A DNA stretch of 64,000 nucleotides from contig NZ_JAGTAS010000050.1 in assembly GCF_025685425.1 (NCBI RefSeq), positions 1-64,000 on the forward strand. Reading direction: 5' to 3'. Within the stretch, counting starts at the first letter, position 1. Every line of letters begins with the position of its first letter. A program made the position numbers and the translations under genes. The notes under the pieces were generated by a model that worked only from the letters and a program-made list of their open reading frames with translations, made no database searches and was not told the origin of the DNA. Shown piece by piece: positions 19,647 through 33,270 of this stretch. The stretch comes from Terriglobus albidus (lineage in GTDB: Bacteria > Acidobacteriota > Terriglobia > Terriglobales > Acidobacteriaceae).

Positions 19647-22600
19647 GTCCGTCAAGGCCGTTTATTCTCCGGCCAGTGGCCACCTCGCTGTTGATGGTGG
19701 CCATTCTTCTTGCCGGAGCGGTTGCCTACCTGCAGTTGCCGGTCTCGGCGCTGCCCCAGGTGGACTACCCGACCATCCAGACGCTTACGTTCTATCCGGG
19801 AGCCAGCCCGGAGGTGATGACCCAGTCGGTCACCGGTCCCCTGGAGCGCCAGTTCGGCCAGATTCCCGGCCTGACGCAGATGACCTCCATCTCCTCGGGC
19901 GGCGGATCGGTCATTACGCTGCAGTTCAACCTGAATGAGTCGATCGATATCGCTCAACAGGACGTTCAGGCAGCCATCAACGCAGCCGGTTCTTATCTGC
20001 CGAAAGACCTCCCAAACCCTCCGATCTATTCGAAGGTCAATCCCGCGGATGCGCCCATTCTGACGCTGGCGCTCAGCTCCAGTTCCCTGCCGCTCGCGAA
20101 GGTGGAAGATCTGGCTGACACGATCATGGCGCAGAAGATCTCGCAGCTGTCGGGCGTGGGTCTTGTCAGCATCAACGGCGGTCAGAAGCCGGCTGTGCGT
20201 ATCCAGGCAAATCCAACGGCGCTGGCCAGCTACGGCATGTCGCTGGAAGATGTCCGCACAGCGCTGGCGTCGGCAAACGTCGATCAACCCAAGGGAAGCA
20301 TCTCGGGAGCCCGGCAGGCCTTTACGATCGGTGCGAACGATCAGCTTACCGCCGCGGCTGACTACAGTAAGGTGATCGTTGCTTACCGGAATGGATCCCC
20401 GGTTCGGCTGTCGGATGTCGCCAACGCGGTGGACTCGGCGGAGAACCTGTACCAGGCGGCATGGTGGAACGAGGACCCGGCGGTCATCGTCAATATCCAG
20501 CGGCAGCCGGGCGCGAACATCATCTCAGTCGTCGACTCCGTAAAGGCGCTGTTGCCGCGCCTGCGCGAAACGCTGCCGAACACGGTCCGTATCGATGTGC
20601 TCACCGACCGGACGAATACGATCCGGGCATCGGTCAAGGACGTGCAGTTTGAGCTGATGCTGACCATTGCGCTGGTCGTTCTGGTCATCTTCCTCTTCCT
20701 GCGATCGTGGCGCGCCACCATCATTCCCTCGGTAGCTGTGCCGCTCTCGATCGTGGGCACTTTCGGCGTGATGTATCTGTTGGGCTATTCACTCAACAAC
20801 CTTTCGCTGATGGCGCTGACCATCTCTACGGGGTTCGTGGTTGATGATGCCATCGTCATGGTGGAGAACATCGATCGCTATCTGGAGATGGGCGACTCGC
20901 CGCTGGATGCGGCGTTGAAGGGCTCAGAACAGATTGGCTTCACCATTGTGTCGTTGACCATCTCGCTGATCGCCGTGCTGATCCCGCTGCTCTTCATGGG
21001 AGACATCGTCGGCCGTCTATTCCGCGAGTTCGCGGTGACGCTGGCTGTGACGATCCTGGTCTCCGCGGTGATCTCACTGACGCTGACGCCGATGATGGCG
21101 GCCAAGTTGCTGAAGCATCTTCCAGAATCGGAGAAGGGCTGGTTCTACCGTAAGAGCGAAGAGTTCTTCAACTACGTGATTGAGAAGTACGCCGTGGGCG
21201 TGCGCTGGGTGCTTCGCAACCAGACGTTAACCCTGTTGGTGACGCTTGCTACGTTTGTTACCACCGTACTGCTGTATATCTACGTGCCCAAGGGCTTCTT
21301 TCCGGTGCAGGACACCGGCGTGATCCTGGGAATTACGCAGGGGCCGGAAGACACCAGCTTCACTGCCATGGCTGCAAAGCAGAAGGCACTGGCGTCAGTG
21401 ATCCTGAGGAATCCGAATATTGAGAATGTCTCTTCATTCATCGGAATCGATGGCACGAATATGACCATCAACTCAGGACGCGTGCAGATCACGCTGAAGG
21501 ATCGCGAAGAGCGTAGTAAGACCGCGAGCGAGATTATCCGCGATCTGGAGCCTGAGCTGGCTAAGGTGGAAGGGATCAAGATCTACCTGCAGCCCTCGCA
21601 GGATCTGACGGTGGAGGATCGCGTCAGCGCATTGCAGTATCAGTTGTCCGTGGAAGACGCGGACCCGGTCGAGCTGCAGAACTGGGTGGATCAGATCATC
21701 GAGAAGATGCGCTCCCTGCCTGAGGTGACGGCAGTGACCAGCGATCAGCATCCCAACGGCCTGGGCGCGCACCTGGTGATCGATCGTGATACGGCGTCGC
21801 GCCTCGGCATTACGCCGCAGAACATCGATGACACGCTGGACGATGCCTTCGGCCAGCGGCAGATCTCAACGATCTATACGCAGATCAATCAGTACCATGT
21901 GGTGTTGGAGGCGGGACCCAGGTTTCAACGGACTCCGGACTCGCTTGACCATATCTATGTGAAGAGCTCGAACGGAACACAGGTGCCGTTGTCGACGTTC
22001 ACGCACTTCGAAGAGAGGAAGGCTCCGCTCTCCATCAATCATCAGAGCCAGTTTCCATCGGCGACGATCTCCTTCAACATCCGGCCTGATAAGAGCATTG
22101 GCGATGCGGTGGATTCGATCACGAAGGCGCTGAAGGAGATGAATATTCCCCTCAGCGTGAATACAGAGTTCCAGGGAACGGCGCGCAGTTTCCAGGCATC
22201 GCTGTCGAACGAGCCAATCCTGATCCTGGCCGCGCTCATTGTGGTGTACATCGTTCTGGGTGTGTTGTACGAAAGCTATATCCACCCCATCACGATTCTC
22301 TCGACGCTGCCTTCGGCGGGTGTGGGCGCCATTCTGGCGTTGATCATCGTCCGCGATTCGCTGAACGTGATTGCGTTGATCGGCATCATCCTGCTGATCG
22401 GCATCGTGAAGAAGAACGCCATCATGATGATCGACTTTGCGCTGGAAGCCGAACGTGAGCACGGCAAAACGCCGGAGGAGTCGATCTACCAGGCGTGCCT
22501 GCTGCGCTTCCGTCCCATCATGATGACGACGATGGCGGCATTGCTCGGCGGCGTTCCTCTGGCCATGGGTACGGGTACGGGTTCTGAGCTGCGGCGTCCC

Positions 22601-22765
22601 CTGGGTATCACGATCATCGGCGGCCTGATCGTCTCGCAGGTGCTCACGCTTTACACAACGCCGGTGGTCTATCTGTTCTTTGACCGTATTGGACGCAGGT
22701 ACTTCAAGACGGAGGACGCCGATCGCAGGCTGCGTGAGCACGAACACGTGGTATCGGCGGACTGA
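19643..22765 (+). CDS. mdtB: RND efflux pump subunit (MdtB/MuxB type)
   Basis: This 1040-residue HAE1-family RND pump has 12 membrane helices and two large periplasmic loops. Typical landmarks are the N-terminal FILRPVATSLLMVAILLAG, GFVVDDAIVMVENIDRYLE in TM4 with the proton-relay Asp pair, and GIVKKNAIMMIDFALEAER in the second half. With the next gene it probably forms a mixed trimer as in MdtBC. The coupled ATGA overlap with mdtA supports joint translation. No outer-membrane channel gene lies nearby. Confidence 0.95.
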   Translation: MSPSRPFILRPVATSLLMVAILLAGAVAYLQLPVSALPQVDYPTIQTLTFYPGASPEVMTQSVTGPLERQFGQIPGLTQMTSISSGGGSVITLQFNLNESIDIAQQDVQAAINAAGSYLPKDLPNPPIYSKVNPADAPILTLALSSSSLPLAKVEDLADTIMAQKISQLSGVGLVSINGGQKPAVRIQANPTALASYGMSLEDVRTALASANVDQPKGSISGARQAFTIGANDQLTAAADYSKVIVAYRNGSPVRLSDVANAVDSAENLYQAAWWNEDPAVIVNIQRQPGANIISVVDSVKALLPRLRETLPNTVRIDVLTDRTNTIRASVKDVQFELMLTIALVVLVIFLFLRSWRATIIPSVAVPLSIVGTFGVMYLLGYSLNNLSLMALTISTGFVVDDAIVMVENIDRYLEMGDSPLDAALKGSEQIGFTIVSLTISLIAVLIPLLFMGDIVGRLFREFAVTLAVTILVSAVISLTLTPMMAAKLLKHLPESEKGWFYRKSEEFFNYVIEKYAVGVRWVLRNQTLTLLVTLATFVTTVLLYIYVPKGFFPVQDTGVILGITQGPEDTSFTAMAAKQKALASVILRNPNIENVSSFIGIDGTNMTINSGRVQITLKDREERSKTASEIIRDLEPELAKVEGIKIYLQPSQDLTVEDRVSALQYQLSVEDADPVELQNWVDQIIEKMRSLPEVTAVTSDQHPNGLGAHLVIDRDTASRLGITPQNIDDTLDDAFGQRQISTIYTQINQYHVVLEAGPRFQRTPDSLDHIYVKSSNGTQVPLSTFTHFEERKAPLSINHQSQFPSATISFNIRPDKSIGDAVDSITKALKEMNIPLSVNTEFQGTARSFQASLSNEPILILAALIVVYIVLGVLYESYIHPITILSTLPSAGVGAILALIIVRDSLNVIALIGIILLIGIVKKNAIMMIDFALEAEREHGKTPEESIYQACLLRFRPIMMTTMAALLGGVPLAMGTGTGSELRRPLGITIIGGLIVSQVLTLYTTPVVYLFFDRIGRRYFKTEDADRRLREHEHVVSAD

Positions 22766-22781
22766 CGGAAGTTTGACCGTG

Positions 22782-22811
22782 GAGGCGTCTGCCCCGACAG
22801 GCAGGCGCCTC
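22782..22811 (+). promoter_or_regulatory. Hairpin between mdtB and mdtC
   Basis: A 12-bp stem (GAGGCGTCTGCC pairing with GGCAGGCGCCTC, one G-T pair) with a 6-base loop is followed by an A-rich run, not T-rich. It lies in the 89-bp mdtB-mdtC gap. It could stabilise the mRNA or alter the pump-subunit ratio; it is a poor match to a rho-independent terminator. Confidence 0.5.
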
Positions 22812-22854
22812 TGAAAAAAGATTTGGAAACAGGCAGCAGGTAAGTACTTCGCCT

Positions 22855-25800
22855 ATGCATATCTCAGCACCATTCATCAAACGGCCGGTAGCCACCTTCC
22901 TGCTCTCGATCGCTATTCTTATGGCGGGGGCGGTGGCGTACAAGTTCCTACCGGTAGCTGCTCTGCCGCAGGTCGAGTTTCCGACGATCTCGGTCAATGC
23001 CGGCATTCCCGGATCTGATCCGGAGACCACTGCGTCAGCGATTACGACACCCCTTGAGCGTCAGTTTTCGCGCATTGCCGGTATTACGCAGATGACCTCC
23101 GTCTCCGGTACGGGGACAGCGAGCATCATCCTGCAGTTCGATCTCTCCCGTGATATCAACGGCGCCGCCCGTGACGTCCAGGCAGCCATCAATGCGGCGC
23201 GTGCCCAGCTTCCGGCGAATCTCCCGCAGAACCCCAGCTACCGCAAGATCAATCCGGCGGATGCGCCGATTCTGATGCTGGCGCTGACATCCGAGTCAAT
23301 GACGTCGGCACAGCTCTATGACGTTGCCGATTCCATCCTGTCGCAGAAGATTGCCCAGGTACCGGGTGTCGGTCAGGTATTTGCCGGTGGTTCTGCCAAG
23401 CCCGCTGTTCGCATTGAGGCGAATCCCCGTCAGCTCTCCGCCTACGGTATCGGTCTGGAGGCGTTGCGGACCGCGATCGGTCAGATCAATGTTTTGCAGC
23501 CAACTGGCTATCTGCAGGATGACGAACACCGCTGGGAGGTTTCGACCTCGGACCAGCTCTTTGGCGCAGCGGCGTATGCTCCGCTGATCATCGCGACTGA
23601 TCGTGGCAATGTATCGAGCGCGGCGGCATCGACGGGGCTGCCTTCGTCGGTCGCGGCGGTTAGTACGACGACCAGCACGACGACGAACACAGCGAATGGT
23701 CCGGCGAATAATGCCAACCGCACTCCGGTGGCGGCATCGAATCAGTCCACCAGTGCCGCGGCGAACGCGCATGGCATTGTGCGTATTCGGGATGTAGCGA
23801 CGGTCTATGACGGGGTTGAGAACATCCAGACTGGCGGCTTCGTCGATGGTAAGCCGGCCATTCTGATGCAGGTCTTCAAATCGCCGGGGGCCAACGTCAT
23901 CGACACGGTGGATCGTGTTCTGGCACTGTTGCCGACGCTGCGCGCAACTATTCCTCCGGCGGTCACGCTGCAGGTGGCGATGGACCGCACCACAACGATC
24001 CGCGCTTCGGTCAACGATATTACCCGCACCCTGGTGTTGACGATCTGCCTGGTGGTGCTGGTTGTCTTCTTCTTCCTGCGCGAGGTGCGCTCGACGCTGA
24101 TTCCATCGGTGTCGGTACCGCTGTCACTGATGGGCACCTTTGGCGTGATGTATCTGCTGGGGTATTCGCTCGACAACCTCTCGCTGATGGCGCTGACGAT
24201 CTCGACCGGATTTGTGGTGGATGATGCCATTGTGGTGATCGAGAACATCTCGCGTCACCTGGAGGCCGGCATGCAGCCATTCGAGGCGGCGATGCTGGGG
24301 TCGGAAGAGATCGGCTTTACGGTGCTCTCGATGAGCATCTCGCTGATTGCGGTGTTTATCCCGATCCTGCTGATGGGCGGCATCGTCGGACGCCTGTTCC
24401 GCGAGTTTGCGGTGACGCTCTCGGTAGCGATTCTGATGTCGCTGGTGGTCTCGTTGACGACAACGCCGATGCTCTCGGCGAAGTTCCTAAAGGCGCATGA
24501 CCAGCAGAAACATGGCCGCTTCTATCTGTGGGGCGAGAAGTTCTTCAACTGGATGCTGAAGGAGTACGACCGGGGCCTGCGCTGGGTGATCCGGCACTGG
24601 GTGCTTACCTTCCTGATCACGGTCGGCACCTTCATCCTGAACATCTACCTGTTCATTCTGGTGCCCAAGGGCTTCTTCCCGCAGCAGGACACAGGCCGTG
24701 TCGGCGGCCAGATCCGCGCACAGCAGGACACGTCCTTTGAAGCGATGCGTCAGAAGATGATTACGCTTGCTGCCATTGTGCAGCGGGATCCCGCGGTGGA
24801 GCATGTGATGTCCTTCGTCGGCGGTGGTGGTCCCGGCGGTGGCGCCTTCAATACGGCCAATCTCTTTCTGGCGTTGAAGCCTTATGACGAGCGCATCAAG
24901 AATGGGGACACCGCTGATGTTGTCATCAATCGCCTGCGCCCGCGCCTGCAGGGAACGCCCGGAGCGCAGCTCTTCATGCAGTCGCAGCAGGAGTTGAACA
25001 TCGGTGGACGGCAGTCGGCTGCGCAGTTCCAGTACACGGTTACGGCCGACACGGTAGCCGAGCTGAAGGAGTGGGGCCCCAAACTGCAGAATGCGATGGC
25101 GCGTCTTCCGGAGCTCCGTGACATCAATACCGATCAGCAGGACAACGGTCTGCGGTACCAACTGGTAATCGATCGCGATACGGCATCGAGGCTGGGGATT
25201 ACGCCGTTGATGATCGACTCGACTCTGTCCGATGCCTTCGGCCAGCGCCAGGTCTCCACGACCTATCGCACCCTGAACCAGTACCACGTGGTGATGGAGG
25301 TTGCGCCGGAGTTCCAGACGGATCTCGACTCGCTGCGCCATATCTTCGTGAAGAGTACAAACGGAACCCAGGTTCCGCTCTCAGCTTTCTCGCACTTTGA
25401 GATGAACCGTGTCCCGCTGCAGGTTAATCACCAATCGCAACGTCCGGCGTCGACCATCTCCTTCAATCTGGGACCTGGCGTCTCGCTCTCCGACGCCACG
25501 AATGCCATTGAACGAGTCAAGAATCAGATCGGTCTGCCATCGACGGTCGTAGGCGGCTTCCAGGGCTCGGCACAGGCCTTCCAGTCCTCGCTCTCATCAG
25601 AGCCGATCCTCATTCTGCTTGCCATGACGACGGTCTACATCGTGCTGGGCATGTTGTATGAGAGCTTTATCCATCCGCTGACGATTCTTTCCACGCTGCC
25701 CTCCGCGGGCGTCGGCGCGCTGCTGGCGCTGCTGATCACGAACATGGAGCTCTCGGTCATTGCCATGATCGGTATGGTGCTGCTGATCGGCATCGTGAAG

Positions 25801-26157
25801 AAGAACGCCATCATGATGATTGATTTTGCGATTGCGGCCGAACGCGAACACGGTAAGGACTCCGAAGGCGCCATCTACGAGGCGTGCCTGCTGCGCTTCC
25901 GGCCGATCATGATGACGACGTTTGCCGCGTTGCTCGGCGGTCTGCCGCTGGCTCTGGGGACAGGCACCGGTTCCGAGTTGCGCAAGCCGCTGGGTGTCAC
26001 CATCGTGGGCGGTCTGCTGGTGTCGCAGTGCCTGACGCTGTTCACGACGCCGGCGGTGTATCTCTTTTTCGATAAGCTGCGGAAGCGTCTTGCGAAGTTC
26101 TTCCCGAAGAAGGCCGCTGCTCCGGCGCATGTGCCGCATCCGGCGACAGGAGACTAA
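22855..26157 (+). CDS. mdtC: RND efflux pump subunit (MdtC/MuxC type)
   Basis: This 1100-residue RND pump is a close relative of the preceding gene, with the same TM4 motif (GFVVDDAIVVIENISRHLE) and GIVKKNAIMMIDFAIAAER. It is about 60-75 residues longer than usual. A Ser/Thr/Ala/Asn-rich insert at about residues 253-306 (nt 23611-23772) sits between the strands LIIATDRGN and GIVRIRDVATV; MdtB has no insert there. The C terminus is basic and Ala/Pro-rich. It is the last gene of the operon and ends beside a heptamer microsatellite. Confidence 0.94.
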   Translation: MHISAPFIKRPVATFLLSIAILMAGAVAYKFLPVAALPQVEFPTISVNAGIPGSDPETTASAITTPLERQFSRIAGITQMTSVSGTGTASIILQFDLSRDINGAARDVQAAINAARAQLPANLPQNPSYRKINPADAPILMLALTSESMTSAQLYDVADSILSQKIAQVPGVGQVFAGGSAKPAVRIEANPRQLSAYGIGLEALRTAIGQINVLQPTGYLQDDEHRWEVSTSDQLFGAAAYAPLIIATDRGNVSSAAASTGLPSSVAAVSTTTSTTTNTANGPANNANRTPVAASNQSTSAAANAHGIVRIRDVATVYDGVENIQTGGFVDGKPAILMQVFKSPGANVIDTVDRVLALLPTLRATIPPAVTLQVAMDRTTTIRASVNDITRTLVLTICLVVLVVFFFLREVRSTLIPSVSVPLSLMGTFGVMYLLGYSLDNLSLMALTISTGFVVDDAIVVIENISRHLEAGMQPFEAAMLGSEEIGFTVLSMSISLIAVFIPILLMGGIVGRLFREFAVTLSVAILMSLVVSLTTTPMLSAKFLKAHDQQKHGRFYLWGEKFFNWMLKEYDRGLRWVIRHWVLTFLITVGTFILNIYLFILVPKGFFPQQDTGRVGGQIRAQQDTSFEAMRQKMITLAAIVQRDPAVEHVMSFVGGGGPGGGAFNTANLFLALKPYDERIKNGDTADVVINRLRPRLQGTPGAQLFMQSQQELNIGGRQSAAQFQYTVTADTVAELKEWGPKLQNAMARLPELRDINTDQQDNGLRYQLVIDRDTASRLGITPLMIDSTLSDAFGQRQVSTTYRTLNQYHVVMEVAPEFQTDLDSLRHIFVKSTNGTQVPLSAFSHFEMNRVPLQVNHQSQRPASTISFNLGPGVSLSDATNAIERVKNQIGLPSTVVGGFQGSAQAFQSSLSSEPILILLAMTTVYIVLGMLYESFIHPLTILSTLPSAGVGALLALLITNMELSVIAMIGMVLLIGIVKKNAIMMIDFAIAAEREHGKDSEGAIYEACLLRFRPIMMTTFAALLGGLPLALGTGTGSELRKPLGVTIVGGLLVSQCLTLFTTPAVYLFFDKLRKRLAKFFPKKAAAPAHVPHPATGD

Positions 26158-28664: not shown

Positions 28665-29243
28665 TCAGAGGAAGAGCCGAATGCCCGCAATTCCGGAGGC
28701 TCCCGCCTCCAGGCAGGCATTGGTGTTGTCGGCGGTGATGCCGCCAAGGGCGAGAACGGGTACCTGGCCCGCGGCAAGGCATGCCTGGTGGAGTAGCTCC
28801 AGGCCGGAACCTTCGGCGACGCGCTCGCCGGTGACTGATTTTTCAAAGACGGGGCCAAAGAGAAGGAAGTCTGCGTCGAGGGAGTGGCGGACGTCATCGA
28901 TGGTGTGGCAGGAGACGCTGACGATGGCTTCGGGGAAGATGGACCGCACTTGCGCCGGGGTCAGCTCGCCCTCCCGGGAGGTCAGATGAACGCCGTGCGC
29001 TCCGGTGGCCAGGGCGACGTCCAGGCGGCCGTTGATTAGCAGTTTGGTTCGGCTGCCGGCAAGTTCGGTGAGTATCCGGCGGGCGAGCGAAACCATCTCC
29101 GCAGCCTCTAAGTCCTTTTCTCTCAATTGCAAATAGTCGATACCGGCGTGGGCCCACCAGCGCGCCAGATCGAGGAGAGCCCGCCGGGCGGCTTGTTCCT
29201 CTGATGAAACTATCTTTCGATTGGTGATAGCACAACGGGTCAT
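28665..29243 (-). CDS. thiE: Thiamine phosphate synthase family protein (ThiE/TenI)
   Basis: This 192-residue TIM-barrel protein has YLQLREKDLE, GVHLTSREGEL, SVSCHTIDDV, DFLLFGPVFEK and VLALGGITADN in the ThiE order. ThiE joins the thiazole and pyrimidine halves of thiamine. No other thi gene or TPP riboswitch is visible nearby, and some TenI proteins share these motifs, so the exact role is not certain. It is 35 bp upstream of the cocE-like gene on the same strand. Confidence 0.8.
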   Translation of the reverse strand: MTRCAITNRKIVSSEEQAARRALLDLARWWAHAGIDYLQLREKDLEAAEMVSLARRILTELAGSRTKLLINGRLDVALATGAHGVHLTSREGELTPAQVRSIFPEAIVSVSCHTIDDVRHSLDADFLLFGPVFEKSVTGERVAEGSGLELLHQACLAAGQVPVLALGGITADNTNACLEAGASGIAGIRLFL

Positions 29244-29351
29244 CCACGTGACAGTCTAACCCCTGTGTTAGCTTAGGGTTTGACGACGTAGCGAAGCTAA
29301 ACCCCTCAACGTGTAACCAAACGAGAAACCGGGGATCATCCTTAAGAGCGC

Positions 29352-30749
29352 ATGAGCAGTGTTTACGATCTGATCGTTATCGGTTCCGGCCCGGCCGGTC
29401 AGCGCGCCGCAATCCATGGCGCGAAACTTGGCAAGAGGGTCGCCCTGGTGGAGAACCGGGAGGTCGTGGGTGGCGCGTGTATCAATACAGGCACCATTCC
29501 GTCGAAGACGATGCGCGAGGCTGTGCTGCATCTCTCCGGCTATAACTACCGCTCCATCTACGGTATGAATTATCGGGTGAAAGAGCGCATCACGATGGCC
29601 GACCTGGCCTTCCGTGTGCAGCATGTCATTAAGACTGAGATTGACGTCACCCAGGCACAGCTCTCCCGCAATAACATCGAGGTTCTGACCGGTTCAGCCA
29701 GCTTTGAAGATCCCACGCACGTCCGTGTGACGAACTCCCGCGGATCGACGGTGTATGAGGCGGCGGCTACGCTGATCGCGACCGGGACCAAGCCGGCCAC
29801 GTCGCCGAAGGTGCCGATCAATGGCACGACCATCATCAACTCCGACCTGGTGCTCGATCTGAAGACGCTGCCCAAGACGATGATTATCGTCGGCGGCGGT
29901 GTGATCGGTGTGGAGTACACCTGTATGTTCGCCGCTCTGGGTGTGCGCTGCACATTGATTGAGCGCCGTCCGCGCCTGCTGGAGTTTGCCGATCAAGAGA
30001 TCGTCGAATCGCTCAGCTATCATCTTCGCGACTCACGTGTGACCATGCGCCTCAATGAAGAGGTGGAGTCGGTGGAGTCGATGGACGATGGCACAGTCGT
30101 CGCCAACCTGGAGTCGAAGAAGAAGGTTACGGGCGACACACTCCTGTATGCCGTCGGACGCCAGGGCAATGTCGATGAGCTGAACCTTGCGGCCATTGGC
30201 GTTGAAGCGGATAACCGCGGGCGTATTCCGGTCGACAAGGACTTCCGCACCAAGTGCCCGAATATCTTTGCGGCCGGCGACGTTATCGGTTTTCCTTCGC
30301 TGGCCTCGGTCAGTATGGAGCAGGGCCGTGTGGCTTCGGCGCGCGCCTTTGGCGACGAGACGATTCTGTCCAATCCGAGCTACTACCCCTACGGCATCTA
30401 CACCATTCCGGAGATCAGCTTCATCGGCAAGACCGAGGAGCAGCTTACGGAAGAGGATGTGCCATACGAGGTGGGCGTCGCCTACTACCGTGAGATCGCG
30501 CGCGGACAGATTCGCGGCGATACGACGGGACGTCTGAAGCTGATCTTCCATCGCGAGAATCACTCGCTGTTGGGCGTGCACATCATCGGTGAAGGCGCTT
30601 CGGAGCTGCTACACATCGGCCAGGCGGTGATGGCGCTGGGTGGAACGATTGAGTATTTTGTCGATACGGTCTTCAACTATCCCACGCTGGCCGAGTGCTA
30701 CAAGGTGGCGGCGTTCAATGGGTTGAATCGTGTGAGTAAGTTGGATTAG
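29352..30749 (+). CDS. sthA: Soluble pyridine nucleotide transhydrogenase
   Basis: This 465-residue flavoprotein passes hydride between NADPH and NAD+. It has the FAD site GSGPAGQRAA near residue 11, the NAD(P) site GGGVIGVEYTCMF near 180 and the FAD-binding AAGDVIGFPS near 310. The redox disulfide of the related lipoamide dehydrogenases is missing: the site reads CINTGTIPSK, with Thr in place of the second Cys, as expected for SthA. Its last 19 codons and terminator recur in diverged form at 31664-31766. Confidence 0.94.
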   Translation: MSSVYDLIVIGSGPAGQRAAIHGAKLGKRVALVENREVVGGACINTGTIPSKTMREAVLHLSGYNYRSIYGMNYRVKERITMADLAFRVQHVIKTEIDVTQAQLSRNNIEVLTGSASFEDPTHVRVTNSRGSTVYEAAATLIATGTKPATSPKVPINGTTIINSDLVLDLKTLPKTMIIVGGGVIGVEYTCMFAALGVRCTLIERRPRLLEFADQEIVESLSYHLRDSRVTMRLNEEVESVESMDDGTVVANLESKKKVTGDTLLYAVGRQGNVDELNLAAIGVEADNRGRIPVDKDFRTKCPNIFAAGDVIGFPSLASVSMEQGRVASARAFGDETILSNPSYYPYGIYTIPEISFIGKTEEQLTEEDVPYEVGVAYYREIARGQIRGDTTGRLKLIFHRENHSLLGVHIIGEGASELLHIGQAVMALGGTIEYFVDTVFNYPTLAECYKVAAFNGLNRVSKLD

Positions 30750-30764
30750 GTTTTTGGAGATGAG

Positions 30765-30797
30765 AAAAATGCCTGCCTCTACGAGGCAGGCATTTTT
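30765..30797 (+). terminator. Terminator of sthA
   Basis: AAAAATGCCTGCCTC and GAGGCAGGCATTTTT form a perfect 15-bp stem, 15 bp past the sthA stop. A similar terminator follows the second sthA tail at 31735. Confidence 0.88.
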
Positions 30798-30960
30798 GCT
30801 TTGTGTAGATTCTTGTAGCACCCGGCTCGTACGCCATCCCTCCTCGGAGCCAAGAAGTCTCAGGTAGTTAGCGCGAGAGGACATGGGTGTGGCACTGAGT
30901 CCCGGAGAACCCATGTTTGTTGTCGCGGGGGGCACCACGAGTCTCGCCGAAATACGGAAT

Positions 30961-31524
30961 CTACGACTTCGTAGCCGGGGCCGTGGCGCTTACCTTATGA
31001 CCTGTCGCTTCTTCGACGACCGAAAACTCTCCACCGTTCTGCGACATCTCGAGCTTGAACGTGTACTCGGTATTGGATACCTGCTTGACGGTGACGCGCA
31101 CACTTATCTTGACGTCGCCCATGTTGGATTCGGCGGTCCAGTTCCAAGTGTCGCCGTTCACCGTGCCTTTTGAATCGATAGCTTCGCCTGTGCTAGTGAA
31201 CGCATGGTAGGTGTAAACCTTCTCATTCGGATCGTAGCCCATGAAGGAGACGCTCTTCTCTGGCCCCATCGGCCCGGCGCCTTCCGAGTGGCACATGACG
31301 AAGAAGTCGCCCGAGTACCATTCGCATTTTTCCGTGGAGGTGAACTTGCCTCCGGGCATTGACCCGAATGGTTTAGCTTCGCCCTCCACTTTCCACGTGC
31401 CAACGTTATAGTCGAGCTTCTTCACCTCTGGCCCTGGCTTCGGTGGGCCCTGAGGCACCTGTGCTTGGAGTGATGTAGCAAGAAGCATCGCGCAAACCGC
31501 GAGCAGTACATTGATTTTCTTCAT
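30961..31524 (-). CDS. Secreted DUF1579-family protein
   Basis: This 187-residue protein has a signal peptide (NVLLAVCAMLLATSLQAQ) and a DUF1579 beta-barrel-like domain (LDYNVGTWKVEGEAK, SVSFMGYDPNEKVYTYHAF). The family function is unknown. AGGAGG before 31524 sets the start; an upstream ATG at 31611 lacks support. The gene lies between the two copies of the sthA tail and on the opposite strand, as if inserted by recombination at that repeat. The gap before it (30798-30960) shows no gene. Confidence 0.85.
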   Translation of the reverse strand: MKKINVLLAVCAMLLATSLQAQVPQGPPKPGPEVKKLDYNVGTWKVEGEAKPFGSMPGGKFTSTEKCEWYSGDFFVMCHSEGAGPMGPEKSVSFMGYDPNEKVYTYHAFTSTGEAIDSKGTVNGDTWNWTAESNMGDVKISVRVTVKQVSNTEYTFKLEMSQNGGEFSVVEEATGHKVSATAPATKS

Positions 31525-31663
31525 AATCGCCTCCTGAAGCGGCCCCGCCGTGGGTGTAGGCGGATGGAACGTCATGTTCACGGCGCGGTGGGGCGTGCGG
31601 GAATGATACATCCGGTCTCTAAATCTTCAACAGAACAATCGCTCTGACTTCGCGGTCTTGTGG

Positions 31664-31722
31664 CGAGTGCTACGAGGTCGCGACGTTCAATGGATTGAAT
31701 CGTGTGAGTAAGTTGGATTAGG
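31664..31722 (+). pseudogene. Second, diverged copy of the sthA 3' end
   Basis: This stretch matches the last 59 bases of sthA (30691-30749) with about 5 differences and would encode ECYEVATFNGLNRVSKLD plus the stop. Two differences change amino acids (Lys to Glu, Ala to Thr). Sequence upstream of it does not clearly match sthA. A similar terminator follows. It is a fragment only. Confidence 0.88.
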
Positions 31723-31734
31723 CTTTGCAGGGAG

Positions 31735-31766
31735 AAAAGCCTGCCTCGTTGAGGCAGGCTTTTTTG
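31735..31766 (+). terminator. Terminator after the sthA-tail fragment
   Basis: AAAAGCCTGCCTC and GAGGCAGGCTTTT pair with a 3-4-base loop and a following T run. It is homologous in position and core sequence to the terminator at 30765. Confidence 0.85.
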
Positions 31767-31886
31767 TTTTAGTGCATTCCACAGGTGGGCCACCCGGTCG
31801 GGAAAATAGGAAAGGCGGTCTCGTTTCGCTCGATACCCCATTCTTTGTCGAAGACGAAAAATGGCAACGAACTCACGGGTGTGGGG

Positions 31887-32525
31887 CTATTCCTTGATCA
31901 CCTTCACGAAGGCGCCTTCAGGCAGGGTTGCGCCGCCGAGAAGGTGGACCACTCCGTCGCGGACGAAGCCGCGGAGCATGGGGTTGCCGTTGGGGTTTGG
32001 CGGGGCCGTGGATTTGGTGGGATAGGGTGTAGCCTTCAGCGGAGCCGGTGCAGGACCGCCGGGCTTGTTCTCGCGTTTCATGCCGCGGTCCATGGCCTCA
32101 TTGGCGAGACGGTCCGCGATCTTGTTCTTGTGGCGCAGGGCGTGGCCGATCTCAAAGCCGTCGAGCTGGCGGATGCGGCGCTTGGCTTCCTCCCACATGG
32201 GCTTCAAGTCAGGCGAGCTGACCTTGTACTTGCCCTGGATCTGCTTGACCATCAGCTCGGAGTCGGACGTGACTTTGAGCCGAGGAATCTTGTGCTCGAT
32301 GGCGTATGCCAGCACCGCCAACAGGCCGGAGTACTCCGCATAGTTGTTGGTGCGGAAGCCGAGGAACTCACTCAGTTCCGCGAGGACGGTGCCGTCGGGA
32401 GCGTAGAGTACGGCGCCGAAGCCGGCAGGGCCGGGGTTGCCGCGTGCTCCGCCGTCGCAAAACGCTGCGACCCAGCCGCCTTCTTGGGCGGCTTCTTCCG
32501 TAAATAAACCATGTGTCTCGCGCAT
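31887..32525 (-). CDS. RNase HI-family protein with a C-terminal extension
   Basis: This 212-residue protein has an RNase H fold with all four acidic residues: Asp24 (FCDGGARGNPGP), Glu64 (NNYAEYSG), Asp88 (TSDSELMVKQ) and Asp138 (NKIADRLANEAMD). It probably cleaves RNA in RNA-DNA hybrids. A Pro-rich linker (about 150-182) leads to a 30-residue tail (LRGFVRDGVVHLLGG then LPEGAFVKV) that resembles DUF104-type antitoxin beta strands. The gene starts on the base after the yqeY stop, so the two are one operon. Confidence 0.88.
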   Translation of the reverse strand: MRETHGLFTEEAAQEGGWVAAFCDGGARGNPGPAGFGAVLYAPDGTVLAELSEFLGFRTNNYAEYSGLLAVLAYAIEHKIPRLKVTSDSELMVKQIQGKYKVSSPDLKPMWEEAKRRIRQLDGFEIGHALRHKNKIADRLANEAMDRGMKRENKPGGPAPAPLKATPYPTKSTAPPNPNGNPMLRGFVRDGVVHLLGGATLPEGAFVKVIKE

Positions 32526-32993
32526 CTATTTCGCCAGTTCCGCCTTCAGCATCTCAGAGACACGCTTGTTGTCGGCATGCAGGCCGCTGGCCGCGATGCG
32601 CTGCTGCACGACTTTCATGGCTGCGCCCATGTCCTTAGGCCCGGGCTTGTTTCCGCTCTCCGCCAGGGTGGCGATAGCGCCCTGTACCACGGCAAAAATC
32701 TCCTCGTCGCTCGACTGCTTCGGCAGGTAGGCCTCGATGATGACGATCTCCGCCTGTTCCTTCTCGGCGAGCTCCGGACGGCCGCCCTTGGCGAACTGCT
32801 CGGCGGCGTCTTTGCGCTGCTTGATCAGGGTGGTCAGAATCTGCTGCTCTTCGGCGTCGGTGAGCGGCTGGCGCTTATCGATCTCCTTGTTTTTGAGCGC
32901 GGTTTTTGCCATGCGCAACGTAGTGAGCCGCAGCTCCTCCTTAGCCTTCATCGCGGTGATGATGTCTTTGCTGATCTGTTCTGTGATGGCCAT
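32526..32993 (-). CDS. yqeY: GatB/YqeY-domain protein
   Basis: This 155-residue helical protein is a stand-alone YqeY domain like the tRNA-binding tail of GatB (KDIITAMKAKEELRLTTLR near the N terminus and KDMGAAMKVVQQRI near residue 125). It may assist tRNA-dependent amidation or tRNA quality control; the role is unproven. It is the first gene of a two-gene operon with the RNase H gene. Confidence 0.92.
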   Translation of the reverse strand: MAITEQISKDIITAMKAKEELRLTTLRMAKTALKNKEIDKRQPLTDAEEQQILTTLIKQRKDAAEQFAKGGRPELAEKEQAEIVIIEAYLPKQSSDEEIFAVVQGAIATLAESGNKPGPKDMGAAMKVVQQRIAASGLHADNKRVSEMLKAELAK

Positions 32994-33034
32994 ATGCCTG
33001 TCCTTCCGTTTTAGAGCGTTCTCCGTATTGCCAG

Positions 33035-33270
33035 GTATCCGGAAGGGTGCAGCGGCATTTTCATTGCGGAAAACGCCTATAGGTTGTGGAAGCCCTACAT
33101 TACACCCGAAGGGAAAATGCTCTATCGCTTACTGATTGTAAGACGCGGCCTGGAGCACTTCCCTGTTGCTGGGTAGTCCGAAAGAGGAGTGCAGCGGCGT
33201 TTTCATTATAGAAAACGCCCATAGATGCGGAGGCCCTAGACTACACCTACAGGGAAATGCTCTACCTGTT
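33035..33270. repeat. Two-copy tandem repeat in a 311-bp gap
   Basis: Two copies of about 97 bp (33035-33131 and 33172-33270) lie in the divergent gap yqeY/aminotransferase (32994-33304). Shared blocks are GTGCAGCGGC, the GCGTTTTC...GAAAACGC hairpin, GGAGGCCCTAGACTACACC-like sequence and GGGAAATGCTCTA. No gene is visible. The second copy reaches to 35 bp before the aminotransferase start and may influence its promoter. Confidence 0.78.

Follow-up and report, generated by a model that had tools for sequence, protein, structure and literature searches.

The DUF1579 gene of Terriglobus albidus lies between two diverged copies of the end of sthA, and this arrangement is old, inherited and the product of ordinary genome remodelling. 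As its best explanation (to which we give a probability of roughly 45%) we propose an old insertion by homology-facilitated illegitimate recombination (HFIR), in which one joint was homologous and lay within sthA, the other was illegitimate, and the original sthA tail was displaced. The locus is an example of a gene being added behind a conserved gene without damage to the latter; it is a single locus and alters no general view. Below, the window refers to the whole 64,000-nucleotide stretch of DNA that was analysed, and relatives are numbered, with G000 for the window's own genome. The following features are of key importance:

29352 to 30749, + strand: sthA-like gene of the pyridine nucleotide-disulphide oxidoreductase family (Pfam Pyr_redox_2 and Pyr_redox_dim)
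30692 to 30802, + strand: copy 1, the functioning sthA end with its terminator (repeat alignment)
30765 to 30797, no strand assigned: terminator hairpin 1, intrinsic-terminator-like, with one A-rich and one T-rich side
30875 to 31661, - strand: conserved DUF1579 block, the gene with its flanks (89% over 790 columns to locus L039 of G001)
30961 to 31524, - strand: DUF1579 gene, 187 aa, from the start codon common to relatives
31603 to 31630, - strand: promoter-like site 5' of DUF1579, within the moved block, placed by consensus match alone (9/12)
31655 to 31673, no strand assigned: right-hand junction, where the DUF1579 block end GTCTTGT is joined to the sthA end GGCGAGTGCTAC, the same in G008
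31664 to 31770, + strand: copy 2, a decaying sthA end with a 5' truncation, plus terminator (repeat alignment)
31733 to 31765, no strand assigned: terminator hairpin 2, between the promoter side of DUF1579 and the end of the RNase H gene
31887 to 32525, - strand: RNase H-like gene, convergent with sthA and the next gene beyond it at the empty site of G001 and G018

The label sthA is carried over from an earlier reading of the sequence alone and is taken here as given, while the family placement comes from Pfam. DUF1579 is the only recognisable gene in the insert. It matches PF07617 with 45.5 bits (above the curated Pfam cut-off of 25.2), and an ATG further upstream would extend the protein to 216 aa. 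Its structure model, with a mean pLDDT of 57, is predicted to be dominated by strands, and we found no literature on DUF1579. PHROGs gave no match to it at E 0.01, and four further open reading frames in or overlapping the insert matched neither Pfam nor PHROGs at that threshold. A viral origin was considered and rejected, as none of 153 pattern-matching stretches in viral_contigs was confirmed and PHROGs gave no match. The same goes for an Rfam element, since a scan of 30600-32000 yielded 0 matches at gathering score. Three inverted pairs of at least 20 bases occur in 29000-33000, and none of them represents terminal inverted repeats of a transposon or IS at the block ends. They consist of the hairpins against each other, a pair in 32312-32353, and 30878-30898 with 32615-32635 (76%). 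Of the last pair, one arm lies at the left end of the block and its partner far outside.

The repeat itself is well above chance expectation. Positions 30692-30754 and 31664-31726 align without gaps at a spacing of 972 and are identical at 58 of 63 positions (92%), the repeated coding part being the final 58 bases of sthA. The hairpin stretches 30764-30802 and 31732-31770 share 82% identity, a gapped alignment of both copies gives 85.6% across 111 columns, and blastn scores the match at E 1e-27 (in a small search space). This confirms two claims of the sequence-only reading, namely that the sthA tail and terminator recur beyond DUF1579 and that they do so with about five differences, two of them non-synonymous. 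In the final 57 coding bases, the G000 copies show four differences, two synonymous and two non-synonymous.

These differences are unevenly spread. Copy 1 of G000 departs from the sthA ends of G001, G008 and G010 (contig C68) by synonymous changes only. Copy 2, on the other hand, carries two non-synonymous changes in G000 and has one base deleted in G008, which could be a sequencing error given a coverage of 2.75 (record L108, taken as the same contig). A 5' truncation is seen in copy 2 only. At the joint, copy 2 of G008 has about 27 additional sthA bases, owing either to a loss in G000 between two near-identical short repeats or to a gain in G008.

Comparing the region downstream of sthA among relatives, as the sequence-only reading had suggested, revealed that the arrangement is not universal. 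Our search covered 19 genomes of the genus, G000 counted, 15 of which reach 90% completeness with contamination of no more than 5%. A nearly full-length sthA orthologue (at least 86%) is present in 17 of the 19; the remaining two have contig-cut pieces (G015) and a 62-residue stretch at 81% (G017). DUF1579 occurs in four (G000, G001, G008 and G010), and in three of the 19 (G000, G008 and G010) it adjoins sthA. These three also have a second site of sthA-end-like DNA (on contig C504 in G010). Other extra matches to the sthA end are opposite-strand hairpins, the separated C504 terminator or a 59% paralogue in G001. In G008 the order is that of the window: sthA, copy 1, DUF1579, copy 2, RNase H. 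Contig C68 of G010 reads sthA, copy 1, DUF1579 and then ends, so the arrangement is established in G000 and G008 and, for G010, in its left part. In G001 and G018, sthA is followed by a terminator and RNase H, with a single sthA end and no intervening gene.

A tree from 4 kb upstream groups the genomes as ((G008,G010),G000), with G001 next and G018 distant; support is 100/100 on each inner branch. Hence, the three carriers form a clade and the two genomes with a single end lie outside it, in line with the explanation preferred here; G000 and G008 are about 91% identical in this upstream DNA. The 1.1 kb on the downstream side give an unresolved tree, in which G000 is no nearer to G008 (90.1% identity) than to G001 (91.2%), a point against that explanation.

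G001 has its DUF1579 block (about 790 bases) at 2330094, where no sthA end is present. In the DUF1579 tree it falls outside G000, G008 and G010 (100/99), as in the species tree, and the outside records L109 (gp2) and L110 (KBS 83) lie beyond it. We also compared 33 DUF1579 loci, 26 of which come from the best rows of 55 matching genomes in a draw of 300 family genomes, mostly with flanks of about 1.5 kb, some of them contig-cut (L122 and L110 are probably one organism). In three of the 33, all of the G000/G008/G010 clade, DUF1579 sits beside sthA. The G001 neighbourhood was rejected as a common ancestral place, since its other flanks are not found next to DUF1579 in G000 or G008, and in G010 the fatty-acid cluster alone is, on C504. 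Most simply, DUF1579 predates the insertion and has changed place. G001 may also have lost the insert by crossover between the copies, which would remove it tracelessly, and hold a second DUF1579 copy elsewhere.

The right-hand junction is the key to the mechanism. Where GTCTTGT meets GGCGAGTGC, the parental sequences share at most one or two bases in a by-eye comparison, so this joint is non-homologous. Past the junction point, the DUF1579 block continues as GTCTTGTCGTC in G001 and as GTCTTATCGTA on contig C25 of G010. Because G000 and G008 have an identical non-homologous joint, one event before their split is most simply assumed. On the left, copy 1 is seamless and the sthA identity along the gene is not anomalous. 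As the truncation at the non-homologous joint is confined to copy 2, the simplest view is that copy 2 was the resident end, since displaced, and that copy 1 came in with the insert.

In the preferred reading, a piece of DNA bearing an sthA end, terminator and DUF1579 would have joined the chromosome of the ancestor shared by G000, G008 and G010, in the gap that separates sthA from the convergent RNase H gene. Homologous recombination inside sthA would have made the left joint and left the gene intact (copy 1), whereas the right joint would have formed non-homologously within the resident sthA end, so that what remained of the resident tail, with its terminator, came to lie on the far side of the insert (copy 2). 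The incoming piece need not have been foreign, and coding constraint on copy 2 would be gone since the insertion. We infer the crossover inside sthA, the resident status of copy 2 and the use of the terminators. Against this explanation, the donor would already need DUF1579 next to sthA, and sthA bears no import signature.

Both hairpins are intrinsic-terminator-like with 15 pairs each, and hairpin 1 could serve both sthA (+) and DUF1579 (-). Because sthA and the RNase H gene are convergent, the transcripts of both could end at one hairpin; once DUF1579 is placed between them, hairpin 1 would be used by sthA and DUF1579, and hairpin 2 by RNase H. All seven hairpin copies tested are fully paired (98/98 cells), with two pairs altered on both sides (5 cells). 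The rows are few, and the count is of 7 out of 8 copies, with the dissimilar hairpin of G018 omitted. None of 500 shuffles matches the pairing, the number of both-side-changed cells or the covariation score; the pair count and the pair-type count are not above those of shuffles (227/500 and 471/500 as high). This intact pairing is consistent with terminators that still function, and both hairpins may have remained paired because each would still terminate a transcript. What appears to remain under selection in the displaced end is the terminator, not the coding scrap.

The sequence-only reading had held that the segment was inserted, that the event was no recent duplication and that the sthA end served as a homologous landing site. 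An insertion is indeed seen relative to G001 and G018 with their single sthA ends, and the data likewise speak against a recent duplication. The landing site stands as a plausible anchor only. The further step, from divergence of the copies to a foreign donor, did not hold, as G000 and G008 have the same arrangement and right junction. Since that junction is common to both, the copies have been free to diverge for at least as long as the two species, and differing copies are to be expected with an upstream divergence of about 9% between G000 and G008/G010. Entry from another species is neither needed nor shown.

Whether copy 2 is closest to the local sthA had been put forward as a check on foreign origin, and here the answer is mixed. 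Copy 2 of G000 is 88.3% identical to copy 1 of G010 (of 111 columns), 87.4% to copy 1 of G008 (of 127), 86.1% to the G001 end (of 115) and 85.6% to its own copy 1 (of 111). In a tree of eight sthA ends (109 columns) it joins copy 1 of G008 at 95/97. However, hairpin arms change pairwise, so this full alignment counts arm changes twice; support falls to 76/82 on the 57 coding columns and to 72/82 with one arm (87 columns of coding, spacer and 5' arm), and G008 has the insertion itself. AU tests, which used a single tree and groups partly chosen post hoc, reject sister status for the copies of G000 (p 0.026) and G008 (0.035) and keep the G010 pair (0.25), while p for the G000 copies rises to 0.07 on 57 and 0.09 on 87 columns. 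An all-copy-2 clade (p 0.038) and an all-copy-1 clade (p 0.029) are rejected as well, which a single event does not predict without later exchange between the copies; perhaps such exchange has occurred. About 110 sites are too few to tell which relative copy 2 most resembles.

An identity scan of sthA and its upstream DNA (20 steps of 200 bases) gave no import signature along sthA in G000, the 3' end included. Between G000 and G001, the last sthA step reaches 94.2%, with 18 other steps at 80.0-94.5% and one at 68.5%; between G010 and G001, identity peaks in that last step at 98.4%. The spacers were compared in 28 pairs with 300 shuffles each. The one after copy 2 of G000 resembles the native spacers of G018 (0/300 shuffles as good) and G001 (2/300), and the one after copy 2 of G008 that of G001 (0/300), with no significant resemblance to G018 (34/300). 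The two do not resemble each other (183/300), nor is the match to the native G001 spacer confined to copy 2, as the spacer following copy 1 in G000 has it too (1/300). These matches are short, with motifs that recur elsewhere in the window, and they lend mixed and weak support to copy 2 as the resident end.

G010 deserves separate attention, as its contigs break at the DUF1579 block and its arrangement is uncertain. C68 ends exactly at the right end of the block. C504 begins within another sthA end, followed by a palindromic element, a similar terminator and fatty-acid genes (acyl-CoA dehydrogenase, thiolase, 3-hydroxyacyl-CoA dehydrogenase, TetR and AMP-binding genes), after which a further palindromic element precedes the beginning of a DUF1579 block. 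C25 opens with the final 139 bases of the block and continues towards RNase H. The contigs are compatible both with an array on one chromosome and with a bin that mixes two strains. The sthA end and bidirectional terminator might even be a recurrent landing place, reached by DUF1579 in three species and, in the G010 material, by the five-gene fatty-acid cluster as well, behind another sthA end, although we regard this as doubtful. If true, genes would be added convergently behind a housekeeping gene whose end is used as homologous anchor, and every arrival would carry its own terminator.

Several side observations concern the same contigs and small repeats. The fatty-acid oxidation cluster (about 8 kb) has differing surroundings in G010 C504 (L082), G000 C33 (L105) and G001 (L104, G001:C1:2334414-2346317), and it is situated elsewhere in G000 and G001; in the latter it is interrupted by about 3.7 kb of electron-transfer-like genes (by eye). 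In G008, its acyl-CoA dehydrogenase gives distant matches only (at most 39%). The window holds two copies of a palindromic element of about 110 bases (33011-33122 and 33159-33262) with ends like GAGCATTTTCCC. More copies flank the cluster in G010 C504 and adjoin it in G000 C33, and the element looks like a small non-autonomous mobile repeat. Beside it, at 8515-8643 of L082, lies a second small repeat type with ends TAGTGTCCTGAGTC and its reverse complement (by eye). On C25 (L106, 168-674), an ORF of 168 aa lies between the DUF1579 block end and RNase H, without a Pfam match and without a relative in five other genus genomes (1/6, itself). Elsewhere in the window, 19838-26055 contains stretches that match one another at 73 to 78% with a spacing of about 3.2 to 3.4 kb and are probably tandem paralogous genes.

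The main rival to an HFIR-type insertion yields the same joint. DUF1579 would first have come to lie between RNase H and the terminator of sthA; a tandem duplication would then have doubled the segment that runs from the sthA end to the DNA upstream of DUF1579, and the second DUF1579 would later have been deleted in G000 and G008. The observed junction is what duplicating that unit would leave, G010 with its second partial DUF1579 and a right block end leading to RNase H looks like an intermediate, and G008 has an additional small sthA-end repeat at copy 2. Nonetheless, an extra deletion is required, the genomes of G000 and G008 each give one DUF1579 match and no second, and the G010 structure may reflect two strains in one bin, so we consider this course rather unlikely. 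Insertion-duplication, in which a circular molecule with the sthA end, terminator and DUF1579 integrates through one crossover, is improbable; it produces direct repeats flanking the insert, as observed, but alone would not give a truncated copy at a non-homologous joint, and Pfam and PHROGs recognise no plasmid-type gene in the insert.

We judge it similarly improbable that homologous recombination at the sthA end imported DNA from another species, which would make one of the copies foreign (copy 2, or else copy 1). In its favour, copy 2 has closer matches in the G008 and G010 ends than in its own copy 1, and the C504 end differs from that of C68 by six synonymous and no non-synonymous changes (0.00005 to 0.00075 by chance in simulation), suggesting that it evolved as a working end. 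Yet the species split accounts for the divergence, the identity scan lacks an import signature and the position of G001 outside the three in the DUF1579 tree matches the species tree. Finally, a duplicated 3' gene end flanking an insert is the usual footprint of integrative elements, and the repeat layout matches it, so the copies could be attachment sites left by a site-specific element that integrated at the sthA 3' end. But no integrase was recognised among DUF1579 and the four further ORFs in or overlapping the insert (Pfam, PHROGs) or among the five C504 proteins tested, and the pattern-based viral_contigs scan gave no DUF1579 relative, which leaves such a remnant very improbable.

Integrative elements at 3' gene ends are alike in their duplicated end but different in that here a single ordinary gene is present and no integrase is recognised. 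HFIR combines one homologous with one non-homologous joint (PMC3240628), the same pairing as proposed here. HFIR takes up incoming, usually foreign linear DNA; at our locus, G001 lies outside in the DUF1579 tree and has DUF1579 elsewhere. Our case differs in that it is known from its end product alone, that the homologous joint is deduced and that the donor possibly belonged to the same lineage. In Vibrio cholerae, effector-immunity modules have been sequentially displaced, for which the authors propose an HFIR-like mechanism (PMC5361080). There, likewise, an upstream anchor is used, a new module is inserted and the old 3' part is moved downstream, although the displaced parts are whole immunity genes, whereas here they comprise a tail fragment and terminator only.
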